Assembly: GCA_013388435.1 (NCBI GenBank)
Contig: JACAFE010000021.1
Coordinates: 1-60,826 of the forward strand
DNA length: 60,826 nt
Source of the DNA: Nitrospirota bacterium
GTDB lineage: Bacteria > Nitrospirota > Thermodesulfovibrionia > Thermodesulfovibrionales > SM23-35
Direction: 5' to 3'
A model generated the notes under the pieces. The model did not search any database, was not told where the DNA came from, and saw only the letters and a program-made list of their open reading frames with translations. Positions 11,601 through 57,005 of this stretch are shown here, piece after piece. The translations under genes and the position numbers were made by a program. The first letter of the stretch is position 1; the number at the start of each line of letters is the position of its first letter.

Positions 11601-11718
11601 TTATAGTCATATGAATTTCTCTTTATTTTACTTGCCATAATTTATTGTCTTGAATGATACACTTATAAAGCCTTAACCCAAATAATCCAGAAATTAATAA
11701 AAAAGGCTTAAGGCAAAG

Positions 11719-11793
11719 AGCGTTTGTTGCGTTTATTGCGTTTATTGCGTTCATTGCGTTATAGCGTTTATAGCGTTCATTGCGTTGTAGCGT
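11719..11793 (+). repeat. GCGTTnATn 8/9-mer tandem array, array A1
   Basis: gcgtttgtt gcgtttatt gcgtttatt gcgttcatt gcgttata gcgtttata gcgttcatt gcgttgta gcgttta. Confidence 0.85.
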
Positions 11794-11861
11794 TTAATTA
11801 AAACCGCACGAAGCATGGCGCAAAAACAAAGGCAAAGAGCAAAAAAAGGCTGAAGGCAAAT

Positions 11862-11932
11862 AGCGTTTGTTGCGTTCATAGCGTTCGTTGCGTTATAGCG
11901 TTTATAGCGTTCGTTGCGTTGTAGCGTTTATC
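11862..11932 (+). repeat. GCGTTnATn 8/9-mer tandem array, array A2
   Basis: gcgtttgtt gcgttcata gcgttcgtt gcgttata gcgtttata gcgttcgtt gcgttgta gcgtttatc; same unit order as A1 minus one unit. Confidence 0.85.
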
Positions 11933-11990
11933 AAATAACATAGAGCAAATAGCTTATAGTTCATGGCAAACAACTATTAAAATAATCAAA

Positions 11991-12158
11991 TGGCAATAAT
12001 TCAATTTATGAAACAAAATCATGGGTCTTATTATACTGAGGCTGAAGTCGAAGCGTAAGCCTCAGAGATAAAATAGGTAATTACATTAAAATATAAAAAT
12101 AAAGCAATGTTCTTATACTAAGGTAGTTTATTTTGGTTCATAAATTGAATTATTGCCA
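11991..12158. repeat. 168-bp MITE-like element with 29-bp terminal inverted repeats
   Basis: TGGCAATAATTCAATTTATGAAaCAAAAT (11991-12019) versus reverse complement at 12130-12158 (28/29 identity); internal CTGAGGCT/AGCCTCAG hairpin; no ORF. Confidence 0.75.
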
Positions 12159-12177
12159 GTAAAAAACTTATAACTAA

Positions 12178-12325
12178 ATTGACAAAGGAATATACAACCC
12201 CCTTAATCCCCCTTAACAAATGGGGAATCTGGCTCTTAGCTCTTTGCTTTATAGGGGGTTATATAAAATTAGAGTTTTCACAACATCTGCATTATTTCAA
12301 TTGCATTTTTTAGGTTAAAATAATA
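12178..12325 (+). repeat. Heptamer-containing dispersed element, copy A (2 heptamer units)
   Basis: Reverse complement of most of 33839-34050 apart from heptamer number. Confidence 0.8.
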
Positions 12326-33838: not shown

Positions 33839-34050
33839 TATTTTAACCAAAAAATGCAATTGAAATAATGCAGATGTTGTGAAAACTTTAATTTTATATA
33901 ACCCCCTATAAAGCAAAGAGCAAAGAGCATAGAGCATAGAGCATAGAGCATAGAGAAAAGAGCTAAGAGCAATGAGCAAAGAGCATAGAGCAAAGAGCCA
34001 GATTCCCCCTTTTTTAAGGGGGATTAAGGGGGTTGTATATCCCTCTGTCA
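33839..34050 (-). repeat. Heptamer-containing dispersed element, copy B (12 heptamer units)
   Basis: Inverse-orientation paralogue of 12178-12325, with (CAWAGAG)n heptamer array at 33914-33997. Confidence 0.85.
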
Positions 34051-34105
34051 TGTTGTTGTTTTTCTCATACTTCAGCCTTCAGCCTAAAGCCTTCAGCCTT
34101 TTTTT

Positions 34106-34136
34106 GTTCTTCGCTCTTCGCTCTTCGCTCTTCGCT
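34106..34136 (+). repeat. TTCGCTC heptamer array with adjacent TTCAGCC repeats
   Basis: cttcagccttcagcctaaagccttcagcc...ttcttcgctcttcgctcttcgctcttcgct; related reverse-complement stretch near 42416-42465. Confidence 0.8.
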
Positions 34137-34213
34137 ATTTGCCTTCAGCTTTTTTTAGCAATATCTGCATTATTTGTGTTAGGTTTAATATATATATTTA
34201 AGGAATTGAATTA

Positions 34214-42029: not shown

Positions 42030-42088
42030 TGATTCCCTTCCTCAATATTTTAGATTCTTAACATAAATAATACAAACATTGCTGAAGA

Positions 42089-42345
42089 GCGTTTATAGCG
42101 TTTATAGCGTTATAGCGTTTATCAAATTAATGCTTCGCATTGGAAGTGAGACCCGCTTTGCGGGTCTGGAATTGAGTGCCGAAAAACGGCACTGGAAGTT
42201 AGTCGCTCTGGCGACTGGAATTTATCAAGCTGTTTTTTGCGTTATAGCGTTTATTGCGTTTATAGCGTTCATTGCGTTCATTGCGTTGTAGCGTTCGTTG
42301 CGTTATTGCGTTATAGCGTTATAGCGTTTATTGAGTTTAATTAAA
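42089..42345 (+). repeat. GCGTTnATn arrays flanking four-hairpin module, locus B
   Basis: gcgtttata/gcgttata units on both sides of the module at 42118-42229. Confidence 0.85.
42118..42229 (+). repeat. Four-hairpin module, copy B
   Basis: TTTATCAAA...ATGCTTCGCAT TGGAAGTGA GACCCGCTTTGCGGGTC TGGAATTGA GTGCCGAAAAACGGCAC TGGAAGTTA GTCGCTCTGGCGAC TGGAATTTATCAA. Confidence 0.9.
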
Positions 42346-42656
42346 ACTGAACGGAGCAGGGCGTACAACAAGGCAAATAACAACCCCCTTAATCCCACTT
42401 AACAAAGGGGGAACTTAGCGAAGAGCGAAGAAACAAAGCTGAAGGCTTTAGGCTGAAGGCTGAAAAATTGTAGGCGTGTTCAGCAAGATTCCCCTGATAC
42501 TTTTCAAATTCATTTTTCAGATAATAATTTGTGATAAAATAGAAAAGATTGATGTAAAATTGAGAACAAGCGATTTGCAGATAAAATTGTTGAAATCTTG
42601 CTTACGTGTTATATTGACAGCTTAATCTATATATGATACTTTGAATAATACATACA

Positions 42657-44927
42657 ATGTCAGATAAATCAGCGATAATAAAAGAAGCCCAAAAATATCT
42701 TGCAAGGGGTCAGATAGATAAAGCTATCTCCGAGTGGGAAAAACTTGTTAAAGAGTTTCCAGATGGTAATTCTTTCAATACCTTAGGAGATTTATATCTG
42801 AAAAAAGGATCACGCTCCACTGCTATTGAATCATTCCATAAGGCTGCCTCTTATTTCAAACAGGAAGGTTTTGCACTTAAAGCTCTGGCTTTATACAAAA
42901 AAATACTTAATATAATGCCCAATGATACAGTCGCTTTGTTTTCTCTGGGTGAACTTAATGAAGCTAAGGGTTTGATAACAGATGCAATAAAGTTCTATCT
43001 TGCCGCAGCAGACAGTCTTTCAAAGGAAGGCAAAAAAGAGAAAATTCTTGAAATATATGGCAGGATACTTTCCCTATCACCTTCAAATATTCCGTTAAGA
43101 AGTAAAGTAGCCGAAATATATGTTCGCGACGGATTATTAAACGAGGCTTCCAAACAATATCTGCAGATCGCTGCGTTATTGCTTGATAAAGGCGAAGTTG
43201 ATAAATCAATTATCTATTATCAAAAAGTGCTTGATATAGAGCCTGTTAATAAGCAGGCAATTCTTGGATTATCTGAATTGTATGAAAGGACCGGCAATTT
43301 AAATAAAGCTGTTGAATATATAAAAGAAGCTGTAAGCCTATTCCCAGATGATACAGATATTTTAATTAGAGCTACTGAAATATGCATTGTTAATAATATG
43401 TATGATGATGCGGTAGAATATCTTCAAAAAACCCTCGAGAAAGAGCCATCAAATATAAAAGCCAGAAGGCTTCTCGGTGATGTTTATAATAAAAGGGGTG
43501 AAAAAGAAAAAGCATGGAATGAATATTTGCCTGTTCTTGATGAAATGATTCTTGAGGAAAAATATGAGGATGCAATAAATCTTCTGGAATCGTTTAAAGA
43601 TATAGATCCACTTGAAACAGGAAAGCGCCTTGTCTCTCTCTACAGACAAATAGGGGAACAGGAACATGTAGCTCGCGAGCTCATTTCACTTGCCGATGTT
43701 TTTATTTTAAGGGACATGAAAAATGAAGCCATGAATTGTCTGAAGGAAGTTTTAAACATTACACCTGAAGACGAAATTATAAAATTAAGACTTATAGAAC
43801 TCGAAAAAGAAATATTAAAATCAACATTGCCTCCCGAAGTTGAAAAAACTGTTGATGAGGCAATTCTTGAGGCAGATATTTATTTAAAGTATGGACTGAA
43901 AGAAAACGCAAGAGAACTTCTTGAATCCCTCAGGGATAAAGAACCCGAGAATGTTCTTCTTCACCAGAGGCTAAAAACTCTTTATTTTGAAAATAACGAA
44001 AAAGAAAAGGCAGTCGATGAATGCTTAAAACTTTACGATATTTACAGACAAAACGGGGAACTGGATAAAAGCAATCAGATGTTAAGGGAAGCATTTGAAA
44101 TCGACCCGGATAATCCGAAACTCGCTCATATTTCTCCTGAAGAGATTTCAGAAAAAGTTCCTGAAACATCGGTTCCCGAAGGTCCTACTATTGATGATTA
44201 CAGCGAAGAACTCTCTGAAGCTTCTTTTTACGCGAGGCAGGGTCTTTTCGACGAAGCAAGAGCGATTCTTGAAAGACTTCAAAGCCTATTTCCCGATAAT
44301 GAAGAAATTAACCAGCGTCTGGCTTCTCTCGAACAGATTCCAATAACAGAAGAACCAGAGCAAATCGTTGAAAGTACAATTGAACCCAGCCCTGTTGAAG
44401 AAGTACCTGAATTACTCGATATTAACGAACCGGAATTGGATAGCGATGTCCTTGATATACTAAATGAATTCAAAAAGGGGCTGGAAAAAGAACTCGAACC
44501 TGAAGACTATGAAACTCATTACAATCTTGGTATTGCTTACAAAGAGATGGGGCTTATAGATGACGCTATTCGTGAGTTTCAGGCTTCAAAGAATGACCCA
44601 AAAAGATTTATACACTCTTCGAATATGCTTGGTGTATGCTATTTGGAAAAAGGGCTTTATTCTCTCGCGATAGACGTATTAAAAAATGCGGTGGAAAAAA
44701 TGGAAGACAGGGGAGAATCTTATTGGGCAATGAAATATGATCTTGCAATGGCATATGAAAAGAATGGAAATCTCAAGGAAGCTCTGGATTTATATACAGA
44801 GGTTTTTGGCTGGAATTCAAAATTCAGAGCAGTTTCCTCAAAGATTGATCAAGTCCGTGCATTAATGACAGCCGATAAAACTGAAAAGAAAGTTCGTGAT
44901 AGAAAGGATAGAGTTTCTTACTTATAA
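42657..44927 (+). CDS. TPR repeat protein
   Basis: Multiple TPR repeats (e.g. ETHYNLGIAYKEMGLIDDAIREFQASKNDP; AILGLSELYERTGNLNKAVEYIKEAVSLFPDD). Confidence 0.9.
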   Translation: MSDKSAIIKEAQKYLARGQIDKAISEWEKLVKEFPDGNSFNTLGDLYLKKGSRSTAIESFHKAASYFKQEGFALKALALYKKILNIMPNDTVALFSLGELNEAKGLITDAIKFYLAAADSLSKEGKKEKILEIYGRILSLSPSNIPLRSKVAEIYVRDGLLNEASKQYLQIAALLLDKGEVDKSIIYYQKVLDIEPVNKQAILGLSELYERTGNLNKAVEYIKEAVSLFPDDTDILIRATEICIVNNMYDDAVEYLQKTLEKEPSNIKARRLLGDVYNKRGEKEKAWNEYLPVLDEMILEEKYEDAINLLESFKDIDPLETGKRLVSLYRQIGEQEHVARELISLADVFILRDMKNEAMNCLKEVLNITPEDEIIKLRLIELEKEILKSTLPPEVEKTVDEAILEADIYLKYGLKENARELLESLRDKEPENVLLHQRLKTLYFENNEKEKAVDECLKLYDIYRQNGELDKSNQMLREAFEIDPDNPKLAHISPEEISEKVPETSVPEGPTIDDYSEELSEASFYARQGLFDEARAILERLQSLFPDNEEINQRLASLEQIPITEEPEQIVESTIEPSPVEEVPELLDINEPELDSDVLDILNEFKKGLEKELEPEDYETHYNLGIAYKEMGLIDDAIREFQASKNDPKRFIHSSNMLGVCYLEKGLYSLAIDVLKNAVEKMEDRGESYWAMKYDLAMAYEKNGNLKEALDLYTEVFGWNSKFRAVSSKIDQVRALMTADKTEKKVRDRKDRVSYL

Positions 44928-44929
44928 TT

Positions 44930-45754
44930 ATGGATTACCTTGAATATTTTGGCCTGAAAGAGCATCCATTTTCTAATGTCGTTGATAACAGGTTTTATTT
45001 TAATAGTCCCCAGCATTCTGATGCTTTAATTAAACTTAAATATGCTGTGGATACAAGAAAAGGTTTGGCAGTTGTAATAGGGCATATCGGCACAGGAAAA
45101 ACAACACTCGCGAGAAGATTTCTTGAGGAACTTGATGAAAATGAATATGAGGCTGCTTTACTGGTTGTTGTTCATTCCAGTGTGAGCTCTGAGTGGCTTT
45201 TTAAAAAATTTGCTCTCCAGCTCGGAATTAAGGAACCGAAAGATGATAAAGTCGAACTTCTAACACAAATATACCGGAGACTCTATGAGATAAATGAAGA
45301 AGGCAAAAAAGCTGTTGTAATGGTTGATGAAGTTCAGATGCTAAATTCAAAGGAGATAATGGAAGAATTCAGAGGTATCCTGAACATGGAATCTCCTGAC
45401 GGCAAAATGATAAATTTTCTTTTTTTTGGTCTTCCTGATCTCGAAAAAATTCTTGCCCTTGATGAACCTTTAAAACAGAGAGTTGCAATGAAGATTACAC
45501 TCAAGCAATTTAACGAGTCCGATACAGGTGAATATATAAAACATCGCATGAGAGTCGCAGGCTGCACTAAAGAGATATTTACACAGGAAGCTATAAAATC
45601 AATCTTTCTTTACACAAAAGGAACTCCGAGATTGATTAATGCTGTATGTGATAACGCTCTTCTTGAAGGATTCCTCGCAAAATTACCGAGAGTTGATTCT
45701 ACAACTATAAAAACAGTGGCAGTTGATCTTGGGCTAACTTCTCCTGATAGCTGA
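44930..45754 (+). CDS. ExeA-like AAA ATPase
   Basis: MDYLEYFGLKEHPFSNVVDNRFYFNS; Walker A GHIGTGKTTLAR; VMVDEVQML; GTPRLINAVCDNALL. Confidence 0.9.
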   Translation: MDYLEYFGLKEHPFSNVVDNRFYFNSPQHSDALIKLKYAVDTRKGLAVVIGHIGTGKTTLARRFLEELDENEYEAALLVVVHSSVSSEWLFKKFALQLGIKEPKDDKVELLTQIYRRLYEINEEGKKAVVMVDEVQMLNSKEIMEEFRGILNMESPDGKMINFLFFGLPDLEKILALDEPLKQRVAMKITLKQFNESDTGEYIKHRMRVAGCTKEIFTQEAIKSIFLYTKGTPRLINAVCDNALLEGFLAKLPRVDSTTIKTVAVDLGLTSPDS

Positions 45755-46363
45755 CATATCTTTCAATCTCAAAACGACCGTATATTTTGCAAATTCAATT
45801 CTTAACTTCGAAGGATACCAGAAGACACCGAAATTTTCCGGGTTTTCATAAGTAATATCCAATTCCCTACCATCATCCAGAAAGATAACTTGTTTTATCG
45901 GGAGCATAGTCTTTTTATTTATCCAAACCTGACGCTGATTGTTTAAAAGGATATAATCGTTTTGATTTTCGCTCACTTCATAATTTTTTATATCCCACCA
46001 ATAAAGACAATCTCTAAGACCATATGTGAGAATAGCTGACTTATTTTTATCAATCTGGGGGTCGCTTTTTATTACACCATCTTTTGAAGAAAGTTCAAAA
46101 ACTAAAAATCCGAAAGAATAAATTCTCATGCTCATATTACCCGAATCCGCTATGCTTACAATGCCATCCCCTTTGATTTCTGTGTCTTCTTTCTCAAAAG
46201 TAGCAGAAAAAGTTGTTTCAATTGAAGAAATGCTCTTGTAAGAAGAGAGAGCATTTTCCAGACTTTTACCCTCGTAAACAGGTATTTCAACCCGTTTTGG
46301 TGCACATGCAAAAAGCATAATCAGGATACTAAGAAAAAATAATCTCGAGGCATTCCTGTACAT
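45734..46363 (-). CDS. Lipoprotein, DUF4292-like
   Basis: Start at 46363 gives MYRNASRLFFLSILIMLFAC lipobox; LolA/DUF4292-like body (FEL..KDGVIKS...WINKKTMLPIKQVIF). Confidence 0.65.
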   Translation of the reverse strand: MYRNASRLFFLSILIMLFACAPKRVEIPVYEGKSLENALSSYKSISSIETTFSATFEKEDTEIKGDGIVSIADSGNMSMRIYSFGFLVFELSSKDGVIKSDPQIDKNKSAILTYGLRDCLYWWDIKNYEVSENQNDYILLNNQRQVWINKKTMLPIKQVIFLDDGRELDITYENPENFGVFWYPSKLRIEFAKYTVVLRLKDMSAIRRS

Positions 46364-47693
46364 TTTTAACTCCTGAAATTTGTAATCCAAAGTTTCCTTT
46401 AATCTTCTGGTGGTTTCCATATGGAATCACCGCTGTTTTAAAACCTATTTTTGATGCTTCTTTAAGGCGATTTTCTGCCTGAGACACAGCTCGTATCTCT
46501 CCAGAAAGGCCAACTTCACCAAATACGAAGAGTTCCGGGTTTACCGGCATATTTTTAAATGATGAAGTGATGGCAGTAATTATACCGAGATCAACAGAGG
46601 GTTCTAATATCTTTAATCCACCAACTACATTTACAAAAACATCCATGCCTCCGAGATGCATTCCTATTTTTTTTTCAAGAACTGCAATAAGAAGATTTAC
46701 TCTGTTAAAATCAACACCCATGGTGGTTCTGCGGGGCATACCAAAGGTTGTTTGTGTAACGAGTGATTGAATTTCAACCATCAATGTTCTTGTGCCTTCT
46801 ATTGTTGCAACAACTGTTGACCCTGATGAATTAATAGGCCGTTCGAGCAAAAAAAGTTCTGAGGGGTTTTCTACCTCAAGCAGACCTGAATCTGACATTT
46901 CGAAAATACCAATCTCATTTGCCGAACCAAAGCGGTTTTTCACTGAACGAAGCAAACGATATGAATGTCCGCTATCACCTTCAAAATACAATACAGTGTC
47001 AACAATGTGTTCAAGCACGCGGGGGCCTGCAATCGCACCCTCTTTTGTTACATGTCCTACGATAAAGACAGGAAGATCGGATTTTTTCGCAAATAACATA
47101 AGTTTTGCAGCGCATTCGCGAACCTGACTGACTGAACCCGGAGCTGACATGATTTCTTCTGTGTATATTGTCTGTATAGAATCAATAACCATTACTTTCG
47201 GTTTAAGATTAACTGCAGAATGTAAAATAGTTTCAAGGGATGTCTCTGCATGAAGTATTATATTATCAGAATTAATTGATAGCCTGTCAGCTCTTATTTT
47301 TATCTGCTCGGGTGATTCTTCGCCCGATACATATAAAACCCTGCCATGCTTTTTTGAAATTCCCGAAAGAGCCTGTATAAGCAGGGTTGATTTACCGATT
47401 CCCGGGTCTCCTCCTATTAAAATTACAGAGCCAGAGACAATACCTCCTCCTAAAACTCTGTCAAGTTCATTAACACCTGTTGTGGTTCTCTGGCCGGATT
47501 CATGTTTTACTGAACTTAAAGGTTTAGGTTCAGATTTTCCGATATGTGACACAACAGAAGAATAGCGTGATGAAATCTCTTTTTTTTCTTCAGCAAAACT
47601 ATTCCATTCACCGCAGTCAGGGCACTTTCCGAGCCACTTTGGACTCATATAACCACATGCCTGGCACTGGAAAAAAGTTTTTGCTTTTGACAT
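46329..47693 (-). CDS. radA: DNA repair protein RadA
   Basis: CQACGYMSPKWLGKCPDCGEWNSF; GGDPGIGKSTLL; KNRFGSANEIGIFEM; C-terminal Lon-like domain. Confidence 0.96.
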   Translation of the reverse strand: MSKAKTFFQCQACGYMSPKWLGKCPDCGEWNSFAEEKKEISSRYSSVVSHIGKSEPKPLSSVKHESGQRTTTGVNELDRVLGGGIVSGSVILIGGDPGIGKSTLLIQALSGISKKHGRVLYVSGEESPEQIKIRADRLSINSDNIILHAETSLETILHSAVNLKPKVMVIDSIQTIYTEEIMSAPGSVSQVRECAAKLMLFAKKSDLPVFIVGHVTKEGAIAGPRVLEHIVDTVLYFEGDSGHSYRLLRSVKNRFGSANEIGIFEMSDSGLLEVENPSELFLLERPINSSGSTVVATIEGTRTLMVEIQSLVTQTTFGMPRRTTMGVDFNRVNLLIAVLEKKIGMHLGGMDVFVNVVGGLKILEPSVDLGIITAITSSFKNMPVNPELFVFGEVGLSGEIRAVSQAENRLKEASKIGFKTAVIPYGNHQKIKGNFGLQISGVKNVQECLEIIFS

Positions 47694-47708
47694 TTAAGTA
47701 TTTAAAAA

Positions 47709-47894
47709 TTATTCCTCAACCATATAATCTTTTAATTTCTCCTGCAAAGAATCAGGCCAGTCATCTTCAAACAAAAACGCATTCATTTCTTCTTTAGTAA
47801 ATGTTTTTACAATATCTGCAGGCAGGCTCCTCAATGCCTGAAGTCTTTCATCTGCGGGTTTTCTAACATCGGATTTGGATTCTTTATTTTCCAT
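47709..47894 (-). CDS. Hypothetical small protein
   Basis: 61 aa in line with neighbours; rc of 'ttgatttctccttg' gives a plausible RBS. Confidence 0.4.
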   Translation of the reverse strand: MENKESKSDVRKPADERLQALRSLPADIVKTFTKEEMNAFLFEDDWPDSLQEKLKDYMVEE

Positions 47895-47941
47895 TGATTT
47901 CTCCTTGTCTTAATTTCATTTCTATATTATAAATATTCTTA

Positions 47942-48292
47942 TTAAGAAAATTCTTTTTCATAGACAATTTCATTTTTGATTTTTGAGAGCACTTCTTCAA
48001 AAACAGGAAGAACAAGCTTCCTGAATCTGCCGGCGACAAGAAGATACATAATATCATCGCCTATAGTAAGATTGCCTTCATTTATCCATGCTTTTATTGC
48101 AACAATTCCATCTTTTCGAGAATATTCCTCGATAAGTTTTTGCAGCTTATTTCGGTCATAAGTTAAATGCATTCCTTTAACCTGTTTGCCTTCTTTAGAT
48201 GTAGCCCTTACCATTCCGTTGTGAATAAGAATCATGCCTAATTCATTGAAATCTGCACTCTTTTTAACTTCAGATATCCATTGTTCAACCAT
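47942..48292 (-). CDS. Divergent MoaE-like protein (molybdopterin synthase large-subunit family)
   Basis: GMILIHNGMVRATSKEGKQVKGMHLTYDRNKLQKLIEE...IKAWINEGNLTIGDDIMYLLVAGRFRKLVLPVFEEVLSKIKNEIVYEKE. Confidence 0.6.
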   Translation of the reverse strand: MVEQWISEVKKSADFNELGMILIHNGMVRATSKEGKQVKGMHLTYDRNKLQKLIEEYSRKDGIVAIKAWINEGNLTIGDDIMYLLVAGRFRKLVLPVFEEVLSKIKNEIVYEKEFS

Positions 48293-48321
48293 AATACCTC
48301 CTCACCTTATTAATCTTATTT

Positions 48322-48352
48322 TCAAAACTTAACCATAGAGAATACAGAGAAA
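48322..48352 (-). repeat. Partial copy (one arm) of the ~86-90-bp TIR hairpin element
   Basis: tcaaaacttaaccatagagaatacagagaaa is the reverse complement of the right half of 7708-7797. Confidence 0.65.
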
Positions 48353-48463
48353 CATATTGATATTTATACTATTTTATCAGAAAATAATATTAAATGGTTT
48401 TTGCGCATTTATTCATTATTTTGGCTGACTCAGATAATAAGGAAGACTTTAAAAATTAAACAT

Positions 48464-49882
48464 ATGCCAATATTAGACAAACATGCGGGTATTTATACTG
48501 ATCATTACGAGCTTACAATGGCTCAGGGTTATTTATTGAATAACAAAAAAGACATTACTGCATGTTTTGATTATTTTTTCAGGAAAAATCCATTCAAAGG
48601 CGGATATGTAGTTTTCGCAGGGTTATATGATCTTCTTGAAATTCTTGAGAATATGCAATTTGATAATGAAGACCTCGATTATTTGAAATCAATTGGCTTT
48701 GCTTCGGAGTTTATCGATTATCTGAGAGAGTTCCGATTCACGGCTGACATATATTCCCCGCAAGAAGGAGAAATAGTATTCCCCTATGAACCCATTGTCA
48801 GGGTCGAAGGAAATATTATAGAGACCCAGATTATCGAGACATTGCTGCTGAATATACTTAATTTTGAGTCACTTATTGCCACTAAATCTTCTCGTATTAG
48901 ATATGCCGCCGGGGAAAAGCTTATAATTGATTTTGGCCTTAGACGAGCGCAGGGACTTGGTGGAATTCATGCAAGCAGAGCAGCTGTAATAGGAGGTGCA
49001 GACAGCACTTCAAATGTTTACAGCGCATTTATGTTTGGTTTAACATCAGCAGGGACCCAGGCTCATTCATGGGTTCAATCCTATGATGACGAGATTACTG
49101 CTTTCAGAGATTTTGCAAGAGCATTTCCACGTAAATGTGTTTTTCTTGTTGATACTTATGATACTCTTGAATCAGGCATACCAAATGCTATCAAAGTTGC
49201 TAAAGAAATGGAGGCTTCGGGTCAGAAATTATTTGGAGTTCGTCTTGATAGCGGGGATCTCGCGTATTTAAGCAAAAAAGCCAGAAAGATGCTTGATGAT
49301 GCAGGATTGAATTATGTCAGGATAATGACCTCTAACCAGCTCGATGAATATGTCATCAGAAGCCTTCTCGAACAAGGTGCGCCTATTGATGCATTTGGTG
49401 TCGGAACAAAGCTTGCTACAGGTCAGGAAGATGCTGCTCTTGACGGTGTATATAAGCTTTGCATGAGCGATAAGAAACCAAGGTTAAAAATATCAGAGAA
49501 TCCCGAAAAGATAATTCTTCCAGGCATAAAGAATTTATGGAGATATATTGATAATGATGGAAATTTCTATGCCGATTGTATTTCACTTGCCGATGAAGAA
49601 GATATAGATATGATTTATCATCCGTTTTATCCTGATAAAAATTGTTCGGTAAAATTATACAGTAAGGAAATTATCCATCGTAAAGTAATGGAAAAAGGAA
49701 AGATAATAATCGACAGGAAAAAACCTACAGAGATAGCTGAATATGTCCGCTCAAGATTGAAGCAGTTGCCAGACGAGCATAAACGATTTGAGAATCCACA
49801 TATATATAAAGTGGGGATAAGTAAAAAATTGATGGATTTACGTTCTGAAATTATTGAAAATATACGTGCTAAATATAGGTAA
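48464..49882 (+). CDS. pncB: Nicotinate phosphoribosyltransferase
   Basis: YTDHYELTMAQGYL; DFGLRRAQG; VFLVDTYDTLESGIPNAI; GVRLDSGDLAYLSKKAR; IDAFGVGTKL. ATG at 48464 preferred. Confidence 0.93.
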   Translation: MPILDKHAGIYTDHYELTMAQGYLLNNKKDITACFDYFFRKNPFKGGYVVFAGLYDLLEILENMQFDNEDLDYLKSIGFASEFIDYLREFRFTADIYSPQEGEIVFPYEPIVRVEGNIIETQIIETLLLNILNFESLIATKSSRIRYAAGEKLIIDFGLRRAQGLGGIHASRAAVIGGADSTSNVYSAFMFGLTSAGTQAHSWVQSYDDEITAFRDFARAFPRKCVFLVDTYDTLESGIPNAIKVAKEMEASGQKLFGVRLDSGDLAYLSKKARKMLDDAGLNYVRIMTSNQLDEYVIRSLLEQGAPIDAFGVGTKLATGQEDAALDGVYKLCMSDKKPRLKISENPEKIILPGIKNLWRYIDNDGNFYADCISLADEEDIDMIYHPFYPDKNCSVKLYSKEIIHRKVMEKGKIIIDRKKPTEIAEYVRSRLKQLPDEHKRFENPHIYKVGISKKLMDLRSEIIENIRAKYR

Positions 49883-49968
49883 TGTCAAAAGTTTCATAAA
49901 AAAAGAGGATATAAACCCACAGATGACATAGAGTTTTACTCTGTCCCACCTGTGGTTAAGTTTTGACA
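49883..49968 (+). repeat. TIR hairpin element, copy 2
   Basis: TGTCAAAAGTTTCAT...GTTAAGTTTTGACA with internal CCACAG/CTGTGG foldback; starts within the pncB stop codon context. Confidence 0.7.
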
Positions 49969-50000
49969 ATGTATAAATATAAGAAAGGAGGCAATTAATT

Positions 50001-50546
50001 ATGAAAGCCCTGTTAATAGTAGATGTGCAGAATGATTTCTGCCCGGGTGGGGCTTTGCCTGCTCCTCACGGAGACAGGGTTGTTCCTGTTATAAATACTT
50101 TAATGGATAAGTTTCCTTTAATTGTTGCTTCAAAAGACTGGCATCCTGAAAAAACTGTACATTTTGAAAAATGGCCGAGGCATTGTGTTCAAGGCACAAA
50201 AGGGGCTGAACTGCATCCTGACCTTAAAAAAGAAAAAATCAGCCAGATTGTTCTTAAGGGAACATTAGATCAGGAAGAAGGTTATTCTGTATTTGAAGGT
50301 ATTGATATTGATCTTGAAAAATTCCTGAAAGACAATGGAGTGAATGAACTTTATATAACCGGCCTTGTAACAGAATATTGTGTTAAAGAAACAGCAATAG
50401 ACGCGGCAAAAAGGGGATTCACTACATTCGTAATAAAAGAAGCGGTAGAAGGTGTTGAATTGAATGCAGGAGATGTGGAAAAGGCTTTTAAAGAAATGGA
50501 AAAAGCAGGTGTAAGGGTTATATCTTCATCAGATATAAACGGATGA
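50001..50546 (+). CDS. pncA: Nicotinamidase
   Basis: LLIVDVQNDFCPGGALPAPHGD; ASKDWHPEKTVHFEKWPRHCVQGTKGAELHP; ITGLVTEYCVKETAIDA. Confidence 0.93.
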   Translation: MKALLIVDVQNDFCPGGALPAPHGDRVVPVINTLMDKFPLIVASKDWHPEKTVHFEKWPRHCVQGTKGAELHPDLKKEKISQIVLKGTLDQEEGYSVFEGIDIDLEKFLKDNGVNELYITGLVTEYCVKETAIDAAKRGFTTFVIKEAVEGVELNAGDVEKAFKEMEKAGVRVISSSDING

Positions 50547-50548
50547 CT

Positions 50549-51313
50549 TTATAATTTTAACAAACTCATACCTTTCCCTATGTTGAAGGATTGTTTAATG
50601 GCTTCTTTTATAAATTCTTTTGCCTTTTTAACTGCTTTAAGCGGGGCATAGTCGAGGGCAAGAAGTGCGGTAAGAGCTGCAGAAAAGGCGCATCCTGTTC
50701 CATGATATTCACCTTTTAATTTTTCCGATTCTATTTTATGGAATTCACCATCATAATAAAGGTCGAGCGCAATATCATTCAAATGACCGCCTGTTATCAC
50801 TACGATTTCCGGACCCATATTTTTTAGAGCTTTTGCAGCCTGTTCCATATTCGACGTGTCTTCTATTATCATTCCTGTTAAGATTGATGCCTCGTAAATA
50901 TTCGGTGTAATAATTTTTGACAGAGGAAATAATTTATCTTTTATTTCATCCAAGGTGCCTTCTTCCATAAGGCTTTTGCCAGATGATGACACTGAAACCG
51001 GATCAATAACCAGATTCTTCAAGGAATATTCTTTAATTGATCTTAAAATTATATTAACCATCCATTTATTGTAAATCATTCCTGTTTTGAGAGCGTCTGG
51101 CTTAATATCGGATAAAATTACATTTAACTGTTTTTGAAAGGATTCCTGTTCAGCAGGGAAAACAGAATCAACACCCTTAGTGTTCTGGGCTGTGATGGAT
51201 GTAACAACTGAAAGTCCATGCACATTGAAATATCTGAAAACCTTAAGGTCAGCCTGAAGTCCTGCACCACCAGTTGGGTCAGACCCGGCAATGGTAAGCG
51301 CTGTTTTAATCAT
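50549..51313 (-). CDS. thiD: Hydroxymethylpyrimidine/phosphomethylpyrimidine kinase
   Basis: ALTIAGSDPTGGAGLQADLK; GEYHGTGCAFSAALTALLAL. Confidence 0.95.
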   Translation of the reverse strand: MIKTALTIAGSDPTGGAGLQADLKVFRYFNVHGLSVVTSITAQNTKGVDSVFPAEQESFQKQLNVILSDIKPDALKTGMIYNKWMVNIILRSIKEYSLKNLVIDPVSVSSSGKSLMEEGTLDEIKDKLFPLSKIITPNIYEASILTGMIIEDTSNMEQAAKALKNMGPEIVVITGGHLNDIALDLYYDGEFHKIESEKLKGEYHGTGCAFSAALTALLALDYAPLKAVKKAKEFIKEAIKQSFNIGKGMSLLKL

Positions 51314-52608
51314 GGCTTCTCGAAGCTCTTCTTTCTTAATGCCCTTTCCACAGTTTTTATCGCGCAAAACTCTCCACACATGCTGCATACATCCTGTTCT
51401 GAAGGAGGAGTTTCAGCTCGCAATTTTTTAATTTTTTCGGGATTAAAACTTAATGCAATCTGTCCATTCCAGTCAAGATTTTTCCTGCACCTTGCCATTT
51501 TTCTGTCAAGTTCAATCGCTCCTGGAATTCCTTTTGCTATATCCGCAGCATGAGCGGCAATTTTAGATGCTATAACCCCTTCTTTAACATCTTCTATATC
51601 AGGCAAACGTATATGTTCTGCCGGTGTTACATAACATAGGAAATCAGCCCCAGCTGCTCCTGCAATTGCACCTCCAATGGCAGCAGCAATATGGTCATAC
51701 CCCATGGCAATATCTGTAACCAATGGCCCGAGAACATAAAATGGAGCACCTTTACAGATTTCTTTTTGAAGTTTTATATTAAGCTCGACTTGATTCAAAG
51801 GCACATGCCCCGGACCTTCAATAATCGCTTGCACCCCTGCTTCTAATGCCCTGTCTCTTAATTCTCCAATAGTAAGCAATTCCTCTATCTGGCTCCTGTC
51901 TGTTGCATCTTCAAGGCAGCCCGGACGCAATCCATCGCCGAGACTTAAAGTTACATCATATTTTTTAACTATCTCAAGAAGCCTGTCAAAGTATTCATAA
52001 AGTGGATTTTCTTTTTCATTGTATATCATCCATTCAAGAAGAAATGACCCGCCACGACTTACAATATCGAGTACCCTGCCTTCTTCTTTTAATCTTTCGA
52101 TTGCTTTTAATGTTACCCCGCAATGTACTGTTATAAAATCAACACCTTCCTCACAGTGCTCTTTTATAACCTGAAATAAAGTGTCGGTTGTCATTTTCGC
52201 AATAGTGCCATGAGATTCAACAGCGCGCACAACAGCCTCGTAAATTGGCACTGTGCCCACTGCAACAGGTGATTTGTCCAGTAGAATCTTTCTCATATCT
52301 TTTATGCGTCCACCTGTTGAAAGATCCATTACTGCATCAGCTCCATATCGAACAAGAACATCGAGTTTCTCGATTTCTTCTTCAAAGGATATTTTATCCC
52401 TGGATGTTCCTATGTTGGCATTTATCTTTGTCCTCATGCCTCTACCTATGCCGAGTGGTTTTATATCATGAATTTCATTTCTTGTGATAACCGAAACCCC
52501 CGAAGAAATATCAGTGGCGAGTTGTTCTGGGGAGATATTCTCAGTTAATGCAACCTGTTTAATTTCATCCGTAATAATGCCTTGTTTTACAAGTTCGATT
52601 CTTGTCAT
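51310..52608 (-). CDS. thiC: Phosphomethylpyrimidine synthase
   Basis: KINANIGTS; ADAVMDLSTGG; EGPGHVPL; CSMCGEFCAIK. Confidence 0.97.
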   Translation of the reverse strand: MTRIELVKQGIITDEIKQVALTENISPEQLATDISSGVSVITRNEIHDIKPLGIGRGMRTKINANIGTSRDKISFEEEIEKLDVLVRYGADAVMDLSTGGRIKDMRKILLDKSPVAVGTVPIYEAVVRAVESHGTIAKMTTDTLFQVIKEHCEEGVDFITVHCGVTLKAIERLKEEGRVLDIVSRGGSFLLEWMIYNEKENPLYEYFDRLLEIVKKYDVTLSLGDGLRPGCLEDATDRSQIEELLTIGELRDRALEAGVQAIIEGPGHVPLNQVELNIKLQKEICKGAPFYVLGPLVTDIAMGYDHIAAAIGGAIAGAAGADFLCYVTPAEHIRLPDIEDVKEGVIASKIAAHAADIAKGIPGAIELDRKMARCRKNLDWNGQIALSFNPEKIKKLRAETPPSEQDVCSMCGEFCAIKTVERALRKKSFEKP

Positions 52609-53234
52609 TTTAATAACCTCAAAATTTCTTCTGATATTTGTCTCTTGTCTTCAGCAGCAAGTATCGCAGATATTAAAGCAATGCCATCTGCACCTGCACT
52701 TCTTACTTTTTGCACGTTTTCAGGCTTTATCCCGCCAATTGCAAATAAAGGTATAGATACGCTTTTTTTTGCATTTTTTATAGCTTCAATCCCGATAGGT
52801 TCTCCATATTGCATCTTTGATGGTGTTTTAAAAACAGGACCAAGTGTTATAAAATCAACGCCTTCTTCCTGCGCTTTCAATGCCTCTTCAATGTTGTGTG
52901 TTGATTGTCCTATAATAAACTTATCTCCAGAAATTTTTCTTACAGCGTACGCCGGCATACTATTCTGAGTTAAATGAACTCCATCAGCATTAACAGCCAT
53001 AGCAACGTCAACCCTGTCATTTATGAAAAGTTTTGCATTAAATTCATCAGTTAGCTCGCGCATCCAGTAAGCCATATCAAGAATTTCTCTTATAGGCAAA
53101 TCCTTTTCACGCAATTGTACGGCCTTAATTCCGGCTTCGAGCGCTGTTTCTATAGCGACATACATTGAGCAGCCGGCCTTAAAGAGTTTTCTGTCAGTTA
53201 TAAGATAAAGATTAAAATCAATTTTTTCAGACAC
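52605..53234 (-). CDS. thiE: Thiamine phosphate synthase
   Basis: LYLITDRKLF; AVQLREKD; LFINDRVDVAMAVNADGVHLTQ; GTG start at 53234. Confidence 0.92.
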   Translation of the reverse strand: MSEKIDFNLYLITDRKLFKAGCSMYVAIETALEAGIKAVQLREKDLPIREILDMAYWMRELTDEFNAKLFINDRVDVAMAVNADGVHLTQNSMPAYAVRKISGDKFIIGQSTHNIEEALKAQEEGVDFITLGPVFKTPSKMQYGEPIGIEAIKNAKKSVSIPLFAIGGIKPENVQKVRSAGADGIALISAILAAEDKRQISEEILRLLK

Positions 53235-53247
53235 CAAAAATACCGCC

Positions 53248-54021
53248 TTACAAAAGCATGCCCTCAAGCGGGCTGCTTGCTGTTGCATACAATTTCTTGG
53301 GAATTCTTCCAGCCTTAAAAGCAAGTCTTCCGGCAATAACAGCATGTTTCATGGCTTCTGCCATAGAAATAGGGTCTTTTGCTCCTGCGATGCCAGTATT
53401 TATAAGCACAGCGTCACAGCCGAGTTCCATTGCAATTGTTGCATCTGATGCGGTTCCGACCCCTGCATCTACAATTACAGGAACTTTGACAGTTTCGAGA
53501 ATGATTTTAATATTGTATGGATTTCTCAACCCAAGCCCTGAACCTATCGGAGCACCCAGAGGCATAACAGCAGCAGCTCCTGCATCTTCAAGCCTTTTTG
53601 CCATTATCGGGTCGTCATTTGTATATGGCAGAACAATAAAACCTTCCTTTACAAGAACCTCTGTTGCTTTTAATAATCCCCATGTATCAGGAAACAGAGT
53701 TTTTTCATCGCCTATAACTTCAAGCTTTATTAAATCAGATATGCCTGATTCTCTTGCAAGCCTGGCATATCTCAATGCATCTTCTACAGTATAACAACCA
53801 GCAGTATTCGGTAGTATTTTGTATTTTTCAGGATCTATATAATCAAGCAGATTTTCTGATTTCCTGTCAGTAATATTTACTCTTCTTACTGCAACAGTAA
53901 CAACATCTGTTCCTGAAGCTTCAACAGCTTTTCTTGTTTCTTCAAAGTCTTTATATTTGCCGGTGCCTACCCAGAGCCTTGATTTAAACTCAATGCCTTT
54001 AATAATTAACCTGTCATTCAT
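53248..54021 (-). CDS. thiG: Thiazole synthase
   Basis: [72 protein letters not shown]. Confidence 0.96.
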
Positions 54022-54060
54022 ATTTTCTATCTCCTTTTCAGAATTTATACCTTGTGGATT

Positions 54061-54261
54061 TTATCCACCTCCGACAAAATTTACTATCTCAATTCTATCG
54101 CCATCTTTAAGTTTATAATTAGAATAATCAGATTTTTTGATTATATTTAAATTTACTTCCACCGCCACTTTTACAGAAGAAATACCGAGTTCATCTAAAA
54201 GACCCTGTATGGTGTCTGCTTTCATTGTTTCATAAGTTTCGCCATTTACTATTAGTCTCAT
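54061..54261 (-). CDS. thiS: Sulfur carrier protein ThiS
   Basis: 66 aa ending GDRIEIVNFVGGG (C-terminal GG). Confidence 0.93.
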   Translation of the reverse strand: MRLIVNGETYETMKADTIQGLLDELGISSVKVAVEVNLNIIKKSDYSNYKLKDGDRIEIVNFVGGG

Positions 54262-54322
54262 AAAAACAAAAACCGTATCCCTTCACCAGTTTATTATTTG
54301 CTCGGCGAAGGAAAATACGGTT
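54262..54322 (-). terminator. Intrinsic terminator / expression platform of the TPP riboswitch
   Basis: On minus strand AACCGTAT...ATACGGTT followed by TTTGTTTTT directly before the thiS ATG. Confidence 0.65.
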
Positions 54323-54328
54323 GATCAT

Positions 54329-54420
54329 CCCATTCCCTACGCCGGCATTATCCGTATCAGGTTCAAGGGGTCACTCCGTAACATTCAGGAGAATCTCAGG
54401 CTTTTCCGCCACCCCCTGGG
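54329..54420 (-). ncRNA. TPP riboswitch (THI element)
   Basis: Minus strand: GGGGGTGGCGGAAAAGCCTGAGATT...GACCCCTTGAACCTGATACGGATAATGCCGGCGTAGGGAA, matching THI-box core CTGAGA/CCTGAT/GGATAATGCCGGCG.AGGGA. Confidence 0.95.
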
Positions 54421-54752
54421 TTAATTTCAGTATAGATAAGTTATAAATATATTGTCAACAAAGTGTAATTGTTCACGATATATGAAACAGACTTAGGGTT
54501 GTTTTTTTATCTCAAAACCCTTCCATCGGCTAAACGGTTACAGTTTCAATGCCCGCATCGTTTAGCAGCTATATTGTTTGTCTATATCAAGTTACCGTTT
54601 AACGTTACAGATACGGTCTTTGTTACTACTTAATACTTTTCGTTTGAGTGTTTATGAGCGAAGCTCTTACCTCAGCCTTCAGCCTTGTTGTTTACGCTTT
54701 ACGCCGTTCGTTTTTAACTGACCGCAACAAACGCTATGAACGCAATAAACAG

Positions 54753-54866
54753 TTTGATAAATTCCAGTCGCCAGAGCGACTAACTTCCAGTGCCGTTTTT
54801 CGGCACTCAATTCCAGACACGCAAAAGCGGGTCTCACTTCCAATGCGAAGCATTAAATTTAATAAA
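54753..54866 (-). repeat. Four-hairpin module, copy C1
   Basis: Reverse complement of copy B core; hairpin 2 reads GACACGC-AAAA-GCGGGTC (one stem mismatch). Confidence 0.88.
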
Positions 54867-54929
54867 CGCAACAAACGCTATAACTCAATAAACGCTATAA
54901 CGCAATAAACGCTATAAACGCAATAAACA
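54862..54929 (-). repeat. ACGCaATAA/ACGCTATAA 8/9-mer array between modules C1 and C2
   Basis: aaacgcaacaaacgctataactcaataaacgctataacgcaataaacgctataaacgcaataaac. Confidence 0.85.
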
Positions 54930-54930
54930 G

Positions 54931-55043
54931 TTTGATAAATTCCAGTCGCTAGAGCGACTAACTTCCAGTGCCGTTTTTCGGCACTCAATTCCAGACCCGC
55001 AAAGCGGGTCTCACTTCCAATGCGAAGCATTAAATTTGATAAA
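54931..55043 (-). repeat. Four-hairpin module, copy C2
   Basis: TTTGATAAA...CCAGTCGCTAGAGCGACTAACTTCCAGTGCCGTTTTTCGGCACTCAATTCCAGACCCGCAAAGCGGGTCTCACTTCCAATGCGAAGCAT...TTTGATAAA. Confidence 0.9.
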
Positions 55044-55134
55044 CTCAATAAACGCTATAACGCAATAAACGCTATAACGCTATTAACGCTATTAACGCTA
55101 TAAACGCAATAAACGCTATAACGCAATGAACGCT
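55044..55134 (-). repeat. ACGCTATAA/ACGCaATAA 8/9-mer array adjoining the ATPase gene
   Basis: ctcaataaacgctataacgcaataaacgctataacgctattaacgctattaacgctataaacgcaataaacgctataacgcaatgaacgc. Confidence 0.85.
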
Positions 55135-55145
55135 TTCGCTCTTTT

Positions 55146-56444
55146 TTAAGGGGTTATGGGGTTGTTTGCCATAAATATTTCATAGCCTGGCAGTATTAGT
55201 ATATTAATTCCATCCTCTTTAATCGTATCTTTGTAGTCATAAGTGATTATATAACCCTGCTTTAAATTGAAATATTTACAGGCCTCTTTTAATCCTGCTA
55301 TTTCTCTTTTTAAGGTCAGTGAATCCCTTACATCAAAACATACCTGAATAGCAATTTTATTATCTACAAGGAAGTCGCATTCTTTTTTCTCTTTAAAACA
55401 GATAATATTTTTTGTCCATGAAAAAATTTCTTTAAAAATCAAGTTTTCAAGAAGCACACCGTAGTCTTTTTTTTCAAAAAGTTTAATACTGTTTAAAAGA
55501 CCTGTATCTATTAAATATATCTTCTTCTCTCCAAATTCTGTCTTTATCACGGATTTGTAATGCTTTTTTAAGAGCTTTACCATATAGGAAGCTTCAGCAA
55601 AATCAAGATATTTATAAAGCGTGTCTTTGCCTGCTTTTATGCCCTGTGATTTAAGCTCATTATAAACTTTATGAACTGAAAAAAACTTGCCCACATTCTC
55701 AGCAAGTCTTTTTAAAAAATATTTTAAAAGTATTGTATCCTTAATTTGATACCTTTCTGCCATATCCTTATATAGCATAACCTCAAAATATTCCTGTAAA
55801 GTTCTTATTTTTAAAACCTCTTCAAGAAACGCTACCTCAGGAAATCCACCATAAATCATATATTCATTAAAAAGCTGAATAAGTTTTGCCCTTTTTTCGG
55901 AACTGTAAAGATCCCTGTCTTCATCAAAATCAAAAGCCTTAAATCTTATAAACTCCCTAAAATTCAAAGGAAAAACTTCATATTTTATTGTTCTACCACG
56001 CATCGAACTCGCTATTTCCTCACCAAATAATTTTGAATTTGAACCAGTAATAAATATATTTTTTGTGACTGTGTCGTAAACTCTTCTAATAAATCTTTCC
56101 CATCCATCTATGTTTTGAACTTCATCAAAGAAAAAATAACATTCATTTAAATGAATATCTGGATAAAGTTCTCTATAGGATTGGAGGATTAAATCAAGCG
56201 TTTTTAGTGTTAAATCCAGTCTTTCATCCTCTAAGTTAATATAAAGAATTTTTTCAATAGGTGTCCCTTTTTTAATAAGCTCAAGTATATATTGAAATAA
56301 GAGATAAGTTTTTCCAGCTCTTCTGGGTCCTGTAACTGTTACGACCTTATAGGTGTCTGACGGCAGGATGATTTCTCTTTTTAAGGGTTTTGGTATCTTT
56401 CCAGAATGAAATTCACGAATTATAGTTTTTAATACTTCTTTCAT
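55146..56444 (-). CDS. AAA ATPase with C-terminal DUF4143-type domain
   Basis: VTGPRRAGKTYLLFQYI Walker A; YFFFDEVQNIDGWERFIRRVYD; ITGSNSKLFGEEIASSMRGRTIKYEVFPLNFREFIRFK; LENLIFKEIFSW...EKKECDFLVDNKIAIQVCFD. Confidence 0.9.
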   Translation of the reverse strand: MKEVLKTIIREFHSGKIPKPLKREIILPSDTYKVVTVTGPRRAGKTYLLFQYILELIKKGTPIEKILYINLEDERLDLTLKTLDLILQSYRELYPDIHLNECYFFFDEVQNIDGWERFIRRVYDTVTKNIFITGSNSKLFGEEIASSMRGRTIKYEVFPLNFREFIRFKAFDFDEDRDLYSSEKRAKLIQLFNEYMIYGGFPEVAFLEEVLKIRTLQEYFEVMLYKDMAERYQIKDTILLKYFLKRLAENVGKFFSVHKVYNELKSQGIKAGKDTLYKYLDFAEASYMVKLLKKHYKSVIKTEFGEKKIYLIDTGLLNSIKLFEKKDYGVLLENLIFKEIFSWTKNIICFKEKKECDFLVDNKIAIQVCFDVRDSLTLKREIAGLKEACKYFNLKQGYIITYDYKDTIKEDGINILILPGYEIFMANNPITP

Positions 56445-56463
56445 TAGAATAAGGAAACTTTAT

Positions 56464-56498
56464 CATATATATTTCCTTATGTCAAGGAAATATATATG
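56464..56498. promoter_or_regulatory. Perfect inverted repeat immediately upstream of the ATPase gene (candidate operator)
   Basis: CATATATATTTCCTT-atgtc-AAGGAAATATATATG, 20 bp upstream of the 56444 start. Confidence 0.55.
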
Positions 56499-56524
56499 CA
56501 CAGGATTTTTGCATTTGGTATTTT

Positions 56525-56630
56525 CGCACCAAAAAATGAAATTGAAATAATGCAGATGTTGCGAATTTTTTATAACAACCCCCTTGATCCCCCTTTGTTA
56601 AGGGGGAATAAGAGGGTTGTATATTTCCCT
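56525..56630 (-). repeat. Dispersed element related to copies A/B, without heptamer array (copy D)
   Basis: accaaaaaatgaaattgaaataatgcagatgttgcgaattttttataacaacccccttgatccccctttgttaagggggaataagagggttgtatat. Confidence 0.7.
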
Positions 56631-56713
56631 TTATTGTTGCGCCATGCTCCATGCAGTTTTAATTAAACGCAATAACGCTAAAACGCAATGAACGCAATAA
56701 GCGCTATAAACAG

Positions 56714-56826
56714 TTTGATAAATTCCAGTCGCCAGAGCGACTAACTTCCAGTGCCGTTTTTCGGCACTCAATTCCAGACCCGCAAAGCGGTTCTCACTTC
56801 CAATGCGAAGCATTAAATTTGATAAA
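56714..56826 (-). repeat. Four-hairpin module, copy D, with flanking ACGCTATAA-type repeats
   Basis: Same as C2 with hairpin 2 GACCCGC-AAA-GCGGTTC (one stem mismatch); bounded by TTTGATAAA at both ends. Confidence 0.9.
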
Positions 56827-57005
56827 CGCAATAACGCTATAAACGCAACAAACGCTATAAACGCAAAAAACGCTCTTTGCCTTTTTATGAGCAATGTCTC
56901 CATTATTTGGGTTAAATTATTTATATTGTTAATGTTAATTACCTTAGATATTTTTAAATTAAGTATTGTAAGATAATATACATCTAAAAATTTCAGGAGG
57001 AGCAA

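Follow-up and report, generated by a model that had tools for sequence, protein, structure and literature searches.

The 60,826-nucleotide stretch of DNA analysed here (the window; contig JACAFE010000021.1 of the Nitrospirota assembly GCA_013388435.1) contains four copies of a non-coding module, 119 bp in length, in which four hairpins with unlike stems follow one another in a fixed order, joined by a near-constant 7 nt linker, GGAAKTK. The module is probably a non-autonomous, dispersed palindromic DNA element, similar in kind to repetitive extragenic palindromes (REPs) and miniature inverted-repeat transposable elements (MITEs), of about 119–130 bp, with four unlike stems and the linker as a near-constant unpaired tag. 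It lacks an open reading frame, forms strong palindromes, occurs in many intergenic copies and is lineage-specific, which are the features of the general kind 'non-autonomous dispersed palindromic repeat'.

A covariance model (R1), built from 18 copies that all come from the source genome (G000), detects four copies in the window and no others, with scores of 145–157 bits, and these are the four places at which an earlier, sequence-only reading had located the block. The four consecutive hairpins proposed in that reading coincide with the minimum-free-energy structure of the DNA, the first being refined to AATGC-TTC-GCATT; this structure has an energy of −26.4 kcal/mol, compared with a mean of −11.2 kcal/mol (sd 2.5) for shuffled DNA (z = −6.2; 0 of 200 shuffles as good). 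In the RNA fold (z = −4.9) another pairing takes the place of hairpin 1. The spacer previously given as TGGAAKTKA is indeed near-constant, but since an A-T pair closes each stem, its outer T and A belong to the stems and the linker proper is only the 7-mer GGAAKTK. Likewise, the direct repeats TTTATCAAA described as bounding the module are present at its ends, but the left one is not distinct from the surrounding array, into which it blends and with which it varies. The uncompensated changes that had been noticed in hairpin 2 are real in the copies at 54747 and 56708.

The draft source genome comprises 2.15 Mb in 88 contigs, and a search of it returned 33 long module matches together with fragments. 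Some 19 copies are internal to contigs, where their flanks are unique, and some 15 break off at contig ends; as some of the latter must be halves of one copy, the copy number is taken as 28–35. The copies occupy unique intergenic places, and no copy was seen in which the number or order of hairpins is altered, with one truncated relic being found on contig 37. In one copy (L021 1514–1632, contig 54) hairpin 2 is exactly inverted (GACCCGC-AAA-GCGGGTC), as inversion at a palindrome would give. The contrast between unlike stems and a repeated linker and layout, emphasized in the sequence-only reading, holds, and holds also in a second genus, but the term 'modular' does not apply within the genome, where the hairpins form one fixed block of which only the truncated relic departs, and nothing favours a 'designed' architecture over a mobile palindromic repeat.

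Every copy with readable flanks is embedded, always in the same orientation, in an array of 8 or 9 bp units (GCGTTATW or GCGTTYRTW). When these flanks are compared between copies, the pairwise agreement of array units is 0.05–0.19 from the second unit outward on the left side and 0.09–0.17 from the third unit outward on the right side, against a random expectation of 0.15, and exceeds chance only in the first left unit and the first two right units. The flanking units are thus not shared, and what spreads is therefore a unit of about 119–130 bp, the module plus one or two array units at most; the case that the module itself is the dispersed unit is strong but not final. Arrays devoid of a module occur in the window and on contigs 47, 48 and 49, and the right ends of 60 arrays are stereotyped, being mostly TTTATCAAAT or TTTAATTAAA. 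Across 321 array units GCGTT is nearly constant and variation is almost confined to positions 6, 7 and 9 of the unit, in addition to the loss of one base, a pattern that is unlike the random decay of a tandem repeat. Similar arrays, without the module, are present in genomes G003, G006 and G009.

A first search of relatives yielded a 27 bp match in G015, a genome of the same family but of another genus. The locus reads GTG-AATCC-TTC-GGATT-GGAAGTG-AGC-TTC-GCT-GGAATTG-AATGC-TTC-GCATT-GGAAGTG-AGCC-TTC-GGCT-GGAA, and R1, although derived from G000 copies only, aligns to it across all 119 positions (48.1 bits, E 1.5e-11), with a further copy, which is damaged, lying 40 bp upstream of it (27.5 bits, E 3.7e-5). 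The order of the four hairpins is the same and the stems are different, with 17 of the 17 stem pairs standard; by reading of the alignment, three pairs are changed on both sides relative to G000 (G-C to C-G in hairpin 1, G-C to A-T in hairpin 3 and T-A to C-G in hairpin 4). The G015 stems are short, and by folding energy alone they do not reach significance (z −0.8). The two G015 copies form a tandem pair (L031 584–814), one of them damaged, and the window likewise has a tandem pair, at 54747–55043.

The covariance-model search proposed in the sequence-only reading thus recovers the four window copies and the G015 homologue, and no module was found with it in 1.69 Mb of the same-genus genome G001. 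The linker pattern was sought in 176 genomes belonging to the order and in 396 sampled from the phylum, and occurs there only in G000 and G015, in agreement with a search by the left end of the module. The module was not found in plasmid, phage or Escherichia coli collections or in the viral contigs searched. In public genomes, where the linker search outside the phylum was not exhaustive, none of the matches listed has module-like GC-rich hairpins, and those inspected among them are coding repeats, simple repeats or insertion-sequence (IS) ends. A literature search found no paper describing such a four-hairpin block.

Variation among the copies was counted in 35 aligned rows. Variable cells make up 0.6% of the stems and 0.6% of the spacers, and are four to five times more frequent in the loops (2.8%) and ends (2.8%). 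Variants common to at least two copies are found at none of 52 stem sites, one of 21 spacer sites and nine of 46 loop and end sites (stems and spacers against loops and ends, Fisher p = 0.0008), whereas singleton variants are distributed evenly across the site classes (p = 0.81). Fresh mutations therefore appear to fall anywhere, and those that spread to spare the stems and tags. Covariation, a further check that had been suggested, is almost nil within G000, with one compensated stem pair (L011, G-C to A-T) against nine broken ones and, as a control count indicates, too little variation; it is in the fully paired G015 stems that pairs changed on both sides are seen. The module behaves like a parasitic-type repeat for whose spread the folded shape and the linker matter.

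Many of the arrays are nested in larger repeats, here termed T1, which have inverted ends (TTAACC...GGTTAA) and are MITEs. Neither the arrays nor these larger repeats figure in the sequence-only reading. Most of the family's genera that were sampled have T1 ends, as does one other family of the order, and short forms measure about 100–180 bp. A second element with inverted ends of about 45 bp (TGGCAATAATTCAATTTATGAAACAAAAT...) is nested in a T1 composite at window positions 11991–12158, and such ends recur beside several modules. The same-genus genome G001, of which 2.04 Mb of about 2.5 Mb was compared and which is about 88% identical over the window genes, contains no module detectable by BLAST in those 2.04 Mb. 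At L017 the flanks are collinear in the two genomes and the whole composite is missing from G001, 12 bp separating the flanks there and 610 bp in G000. At L012, L014, L024 and window position 42524, the corresponding G001 site retains T1-like remnants and its interior is different; these T1 sites therefore look old and their contents lineage-specific. The two flanks of window copy 1, of window segment 54458–56914, of L003 and of L007 map to separate places in G001, so that module-bearing repeat islands coincide with rearrangement points.

As to how copies spread, the hairpins and the TTTAT/TTTATCAAA edges suggest transposition in single-stranded form. An enzyme supplied in trans would recognize the folded tag-plus-hairpin units, probably on single-stranded DNA during replication, and would place copies at array units, with TTTAT / TTTATCAAA at both edges as candidate joining sites. 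The arrays would offer a setting in intergenic repeat islands, where insertion should do little harm. A bolder version, which we consider tentative and rather unlikely, is that the module represents a new class of mobile DNA with tagged hairpins. Recognition would then depend on the constant linker GGAAKTK and on there being a stem, stem sequences would be interchangeable, and an undescribed enzyme would transfer the complete four-hairpin block, in single-stranded form, to an array that serves as its dedicated landing site.

Several observations weigh against a transposed element. No transposase could be tied to the module, no precise empty target site was found within the arrays, and a consistent target-site duplication is not demonstrable because the target is itself a degenerate repeat. 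Fast turnover of the arrays could also erase shared flanks, and the difference in shared variants weakens to p = 0.07 once the ends adjoining arrays are excluded, in a test that was post hoc and made on related copies. Two candidate movers were rejected. The single Y1 transposase gene of the REP-associated tyrosine transposase (RAYT) type in G000 (contig 37:1530–2174; Pfam Y1_Tnp) scores 66.7 bits with NF047646, below the cut-off of 80, and has no module beside it; its closest relatives are in module-free genomes, with none in G001 and only distant ones in G015. An IS30-like candidate was considered because of tandem TGGAATTTA ends on an element in Lachnospiraceae, where IS30-like elements with 440-aa transposases (L147, L152 and L089) carry tandem TGGAATTTA motifs at 20 bp spacing beside the gene; IS30-family transposases are absent from both G000 and G015.

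The lack of a mover is one reason for taking seriously an account that needs no transposase, namely that homologous recombination or gene conversion between GCGTTYRTW arrays, acting as homology arms, spreads the module. It would agree with the presence of every copy in an array in the same orientation, with the location of several copies at G001 synteny breakpoints, where the repeats appear to recombine, and with the inverted hairpin of L021, a sign of recombination or of template switching at palindromes. Conversion tracts should, however, carry flanking units along, and these are unshared beyond the first one or two, nor does conversion alone predict that spreading variants would spare stems and tags; we regard this account as possible but not likely. 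That the module is passenger DNA of the T1 MITE and spreads by its transposition is highly improbable: a T1 end flanks many copies on one or both sides, and the whole L017 composite is missing from its orthologous site, but several copies have no recognizable T1 end, T1-like ends are older than the module where orthologous sites have differing interiors and the flanks between T1 and the module are unshared.

CsrA-titrating RNAs are laid out as hairpins with GGA in unpaired linkers. The four hairpins and GGA linkers of the module resemble them in layout, and its conserved parts are the stems and linkers, so that a functional RNA or cis-regulatory element might be envisaged, for example a multi-GGA hairpin RNA binding a CsrA-type regulator or an mRNA stabilizer. 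This is very doubtful, since the gene to the left of a copy is about as often in one orientation as in the other (13 versus 14), copies occur between divergent, codirectional and convergent genes, hairpin 1 is lost to other pairing in the RNA fold and the module is absent from almost all relatives. Moreover, nothing resembling a promoter or terminator was found at copy 1, and no Rfam family, identity to which the sequence-only reading had named as a possible objection, matches over the module at gathering score, a permissive search giving chance-level matches only. Together, the random gene orientation and the lack of a fitting promoter, terminator or Rfam family make a directional or cis-acting RNA role unlikely and favour a DNA-level element. 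Finally, segmental duplication or an assembly artefact, which could be suspected from the many draft contigs that end inside the module, is effectively refuted by the distinct flanks: each of the approximately 19 copies inside contigs has unique flanks, its own mutations and its own arrays, the flanks match genes of a relative and a homologue exists in another genus. A TPP (thiamine pyrophosphate) riboswitch at window positions 54316–54426 (68 bits), upstream of thiG (53248–54021), adjoins the tandem module pair. The positions of the module copies, arrays and T1 ends are collected in Table 1.

Table 1. Positions of the module copies, of the parts of copy 1 and of the surrounding repeats in the window.
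Feature	Position	Strand	Score or basis
Module copy 1	42118..42235	+	148.8 bits with R1; fold z −6.2
Module copy 2, hairpin 2 damaged (one inserted base, one broken pair)	54747..54866	-	145.3 bits
Module copy 3, in tandem with copy 2	54925..55043	-	157.2 bits
Module copy 4, hairpin 2 with one broken pair	56708..56826	-	152.7 bits
Hairpin 1, AATGC-TTC-GCATT	42129..42141	+	DNA fold
Linker GGAAGTG	42142..42148	+	sequence and DNA fold
Hairpin 2, AGACCCGC-TTT-GCGGGTCT	42149..42167	+	DNA fold
Linker GGAATTG	42168..42174	+	sequence and DNA fold
Hairpin 3, AGTGCCG-AAAAA-CGGCACT	42175..42193	+	DNA fold
Linker GGAAGTT	42194..42200	+	sequence and DNA fold
Hairpin 4, AGTCGC-TCTG-GCGACT	42201..42216	+	DNA fold
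Right edge GGAATTTATCAAG; direct repeat TTTATCAA common to left edge at 42118	42217..42229	+	sequence
Left GCGTTYRTW array of copy 1	42089..42117	+	
Right GCGTTYRTW array of copy 1	42236..42337	+	
Array separating copies 2 and 3	54867..54924	-	
Array adjoining copy 3	55044..55135	-	
Array adjoining copy 4	56668..56707	-	
Array adjoining copy 4, other side	56827..56875	-	
GCGTTYRTW arrays without module	11720..11932	+	
T1 composite bounded by terminal inverted repeats, holding array and copy 4	56527..56916	.	ends recur in relatives
T1 composite	11673..12318		
T1 composite, neither array nor module	33843..34188		
T1-like left end beside copy 1	42058..42082	+	G001 flank homology ends exactly here
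Decayed T1-like right end	42501..42524	+	better preserved T1 end at orthologous G001 site

GTAG or CGTC tags are the defining feature of the large REP superfamilies (PMC3733652). The hairpins of the window modules are all flanked by GGAA/TTCC, and a hairpin scan of the window gave 12 TTCC tags but neither GTAG nor CGTC, the known-type CGTC/TGTC tags found in G001 serving as a positive control; given this TTCC/GGAA tag, the module lies outside the GTAG/CGTC superfamilies, as the sequence-only reading had surmised for GTAG-type REPs. Solitary TTCC-tagged hairpins are not enriched in G001 (one versus 3.6 expected). G001 is, however, strongly enriched in hairpins that have TGTC/CGTC on one flank and CTGG on the opposite one, which resemble the CGTC REP superfamily. 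With REPs (PMC3733652) and REPINs (PMC3116915) the module shares short GC-rich hairpins, a constant unpaired tag at one end and stems that differ between families, as well as being intergenic, lineage-specific, non-autonomous and present in tens of copies or more. REPs are, however, single, paired or clustered hairpins, whereas the module is a fixed head-to-tail block of four unlike hairpins, embedded in arrays and without a RAYT link; nor is it a REPIN, in which two inverted REPs form one replicative unit, as its four hairpins are in direct order and have unlike stems. Like MITEs, it is short, non-coding, repeated and intergenic, but its ends are the direct repeats TTTATCAAA in place of terminal inverted repeats, the inverted ends being those of the surrounding T1.

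Single-strand transposition of the IS200/IS605 (Y1) type involves hairpins near a short cleavage sequence and a fixed orientation to the target. Such a system would suit the hairpins of the module near a short candidate cleavage sequence, and its fixed orientation, but the sole Y1-type gene in G000 has a non-matching phyletic pattern and the cleavage sites of the module are a guess. The BOX elements of pneumococcus are, like the module, small and interspersed, consist of several sub-modules and are nested with other repeats. There is no sequence link between BOX elements (PMC3049150) and the module, in which the number and order of sub-modules do not vary. CRISPR arrays and attC sites were compared by reading only, with no search for cas or integrase genes: the module is near-constant in its 7 nt linkers and unlike in its palindromes, an arrangement that on this reading fits neither. 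The small dispersed repeats of cyanobacteria, reportedly described by Elhai and colleagues in 2008, are said to be mobile hairpins of very small size that are nested within other repeats, as the module is. They are described as single units, and the four-hairpin block is set apart from them by layout, not by sequence. The module is thus REP-like as a tagged, intergenic, lineage-specific palindromic repeat, and differs in its fixed four-stem block, its near-constant linker and its array landing site.

In most REP-type repeats the hairpins stand singly or in pairs, and one stem sequence is common to a family. In the module, with its four unlike hairpins and single constant tag, it is the layout, and not the stem sequence, that is conserved between genera, which separates recognition of tag and shape from recognition of sequence and could help to find the mover. 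The nesting of module in array in MITE, together with the synteny breaks at these islands, shows how such repeats reshape small genomes.

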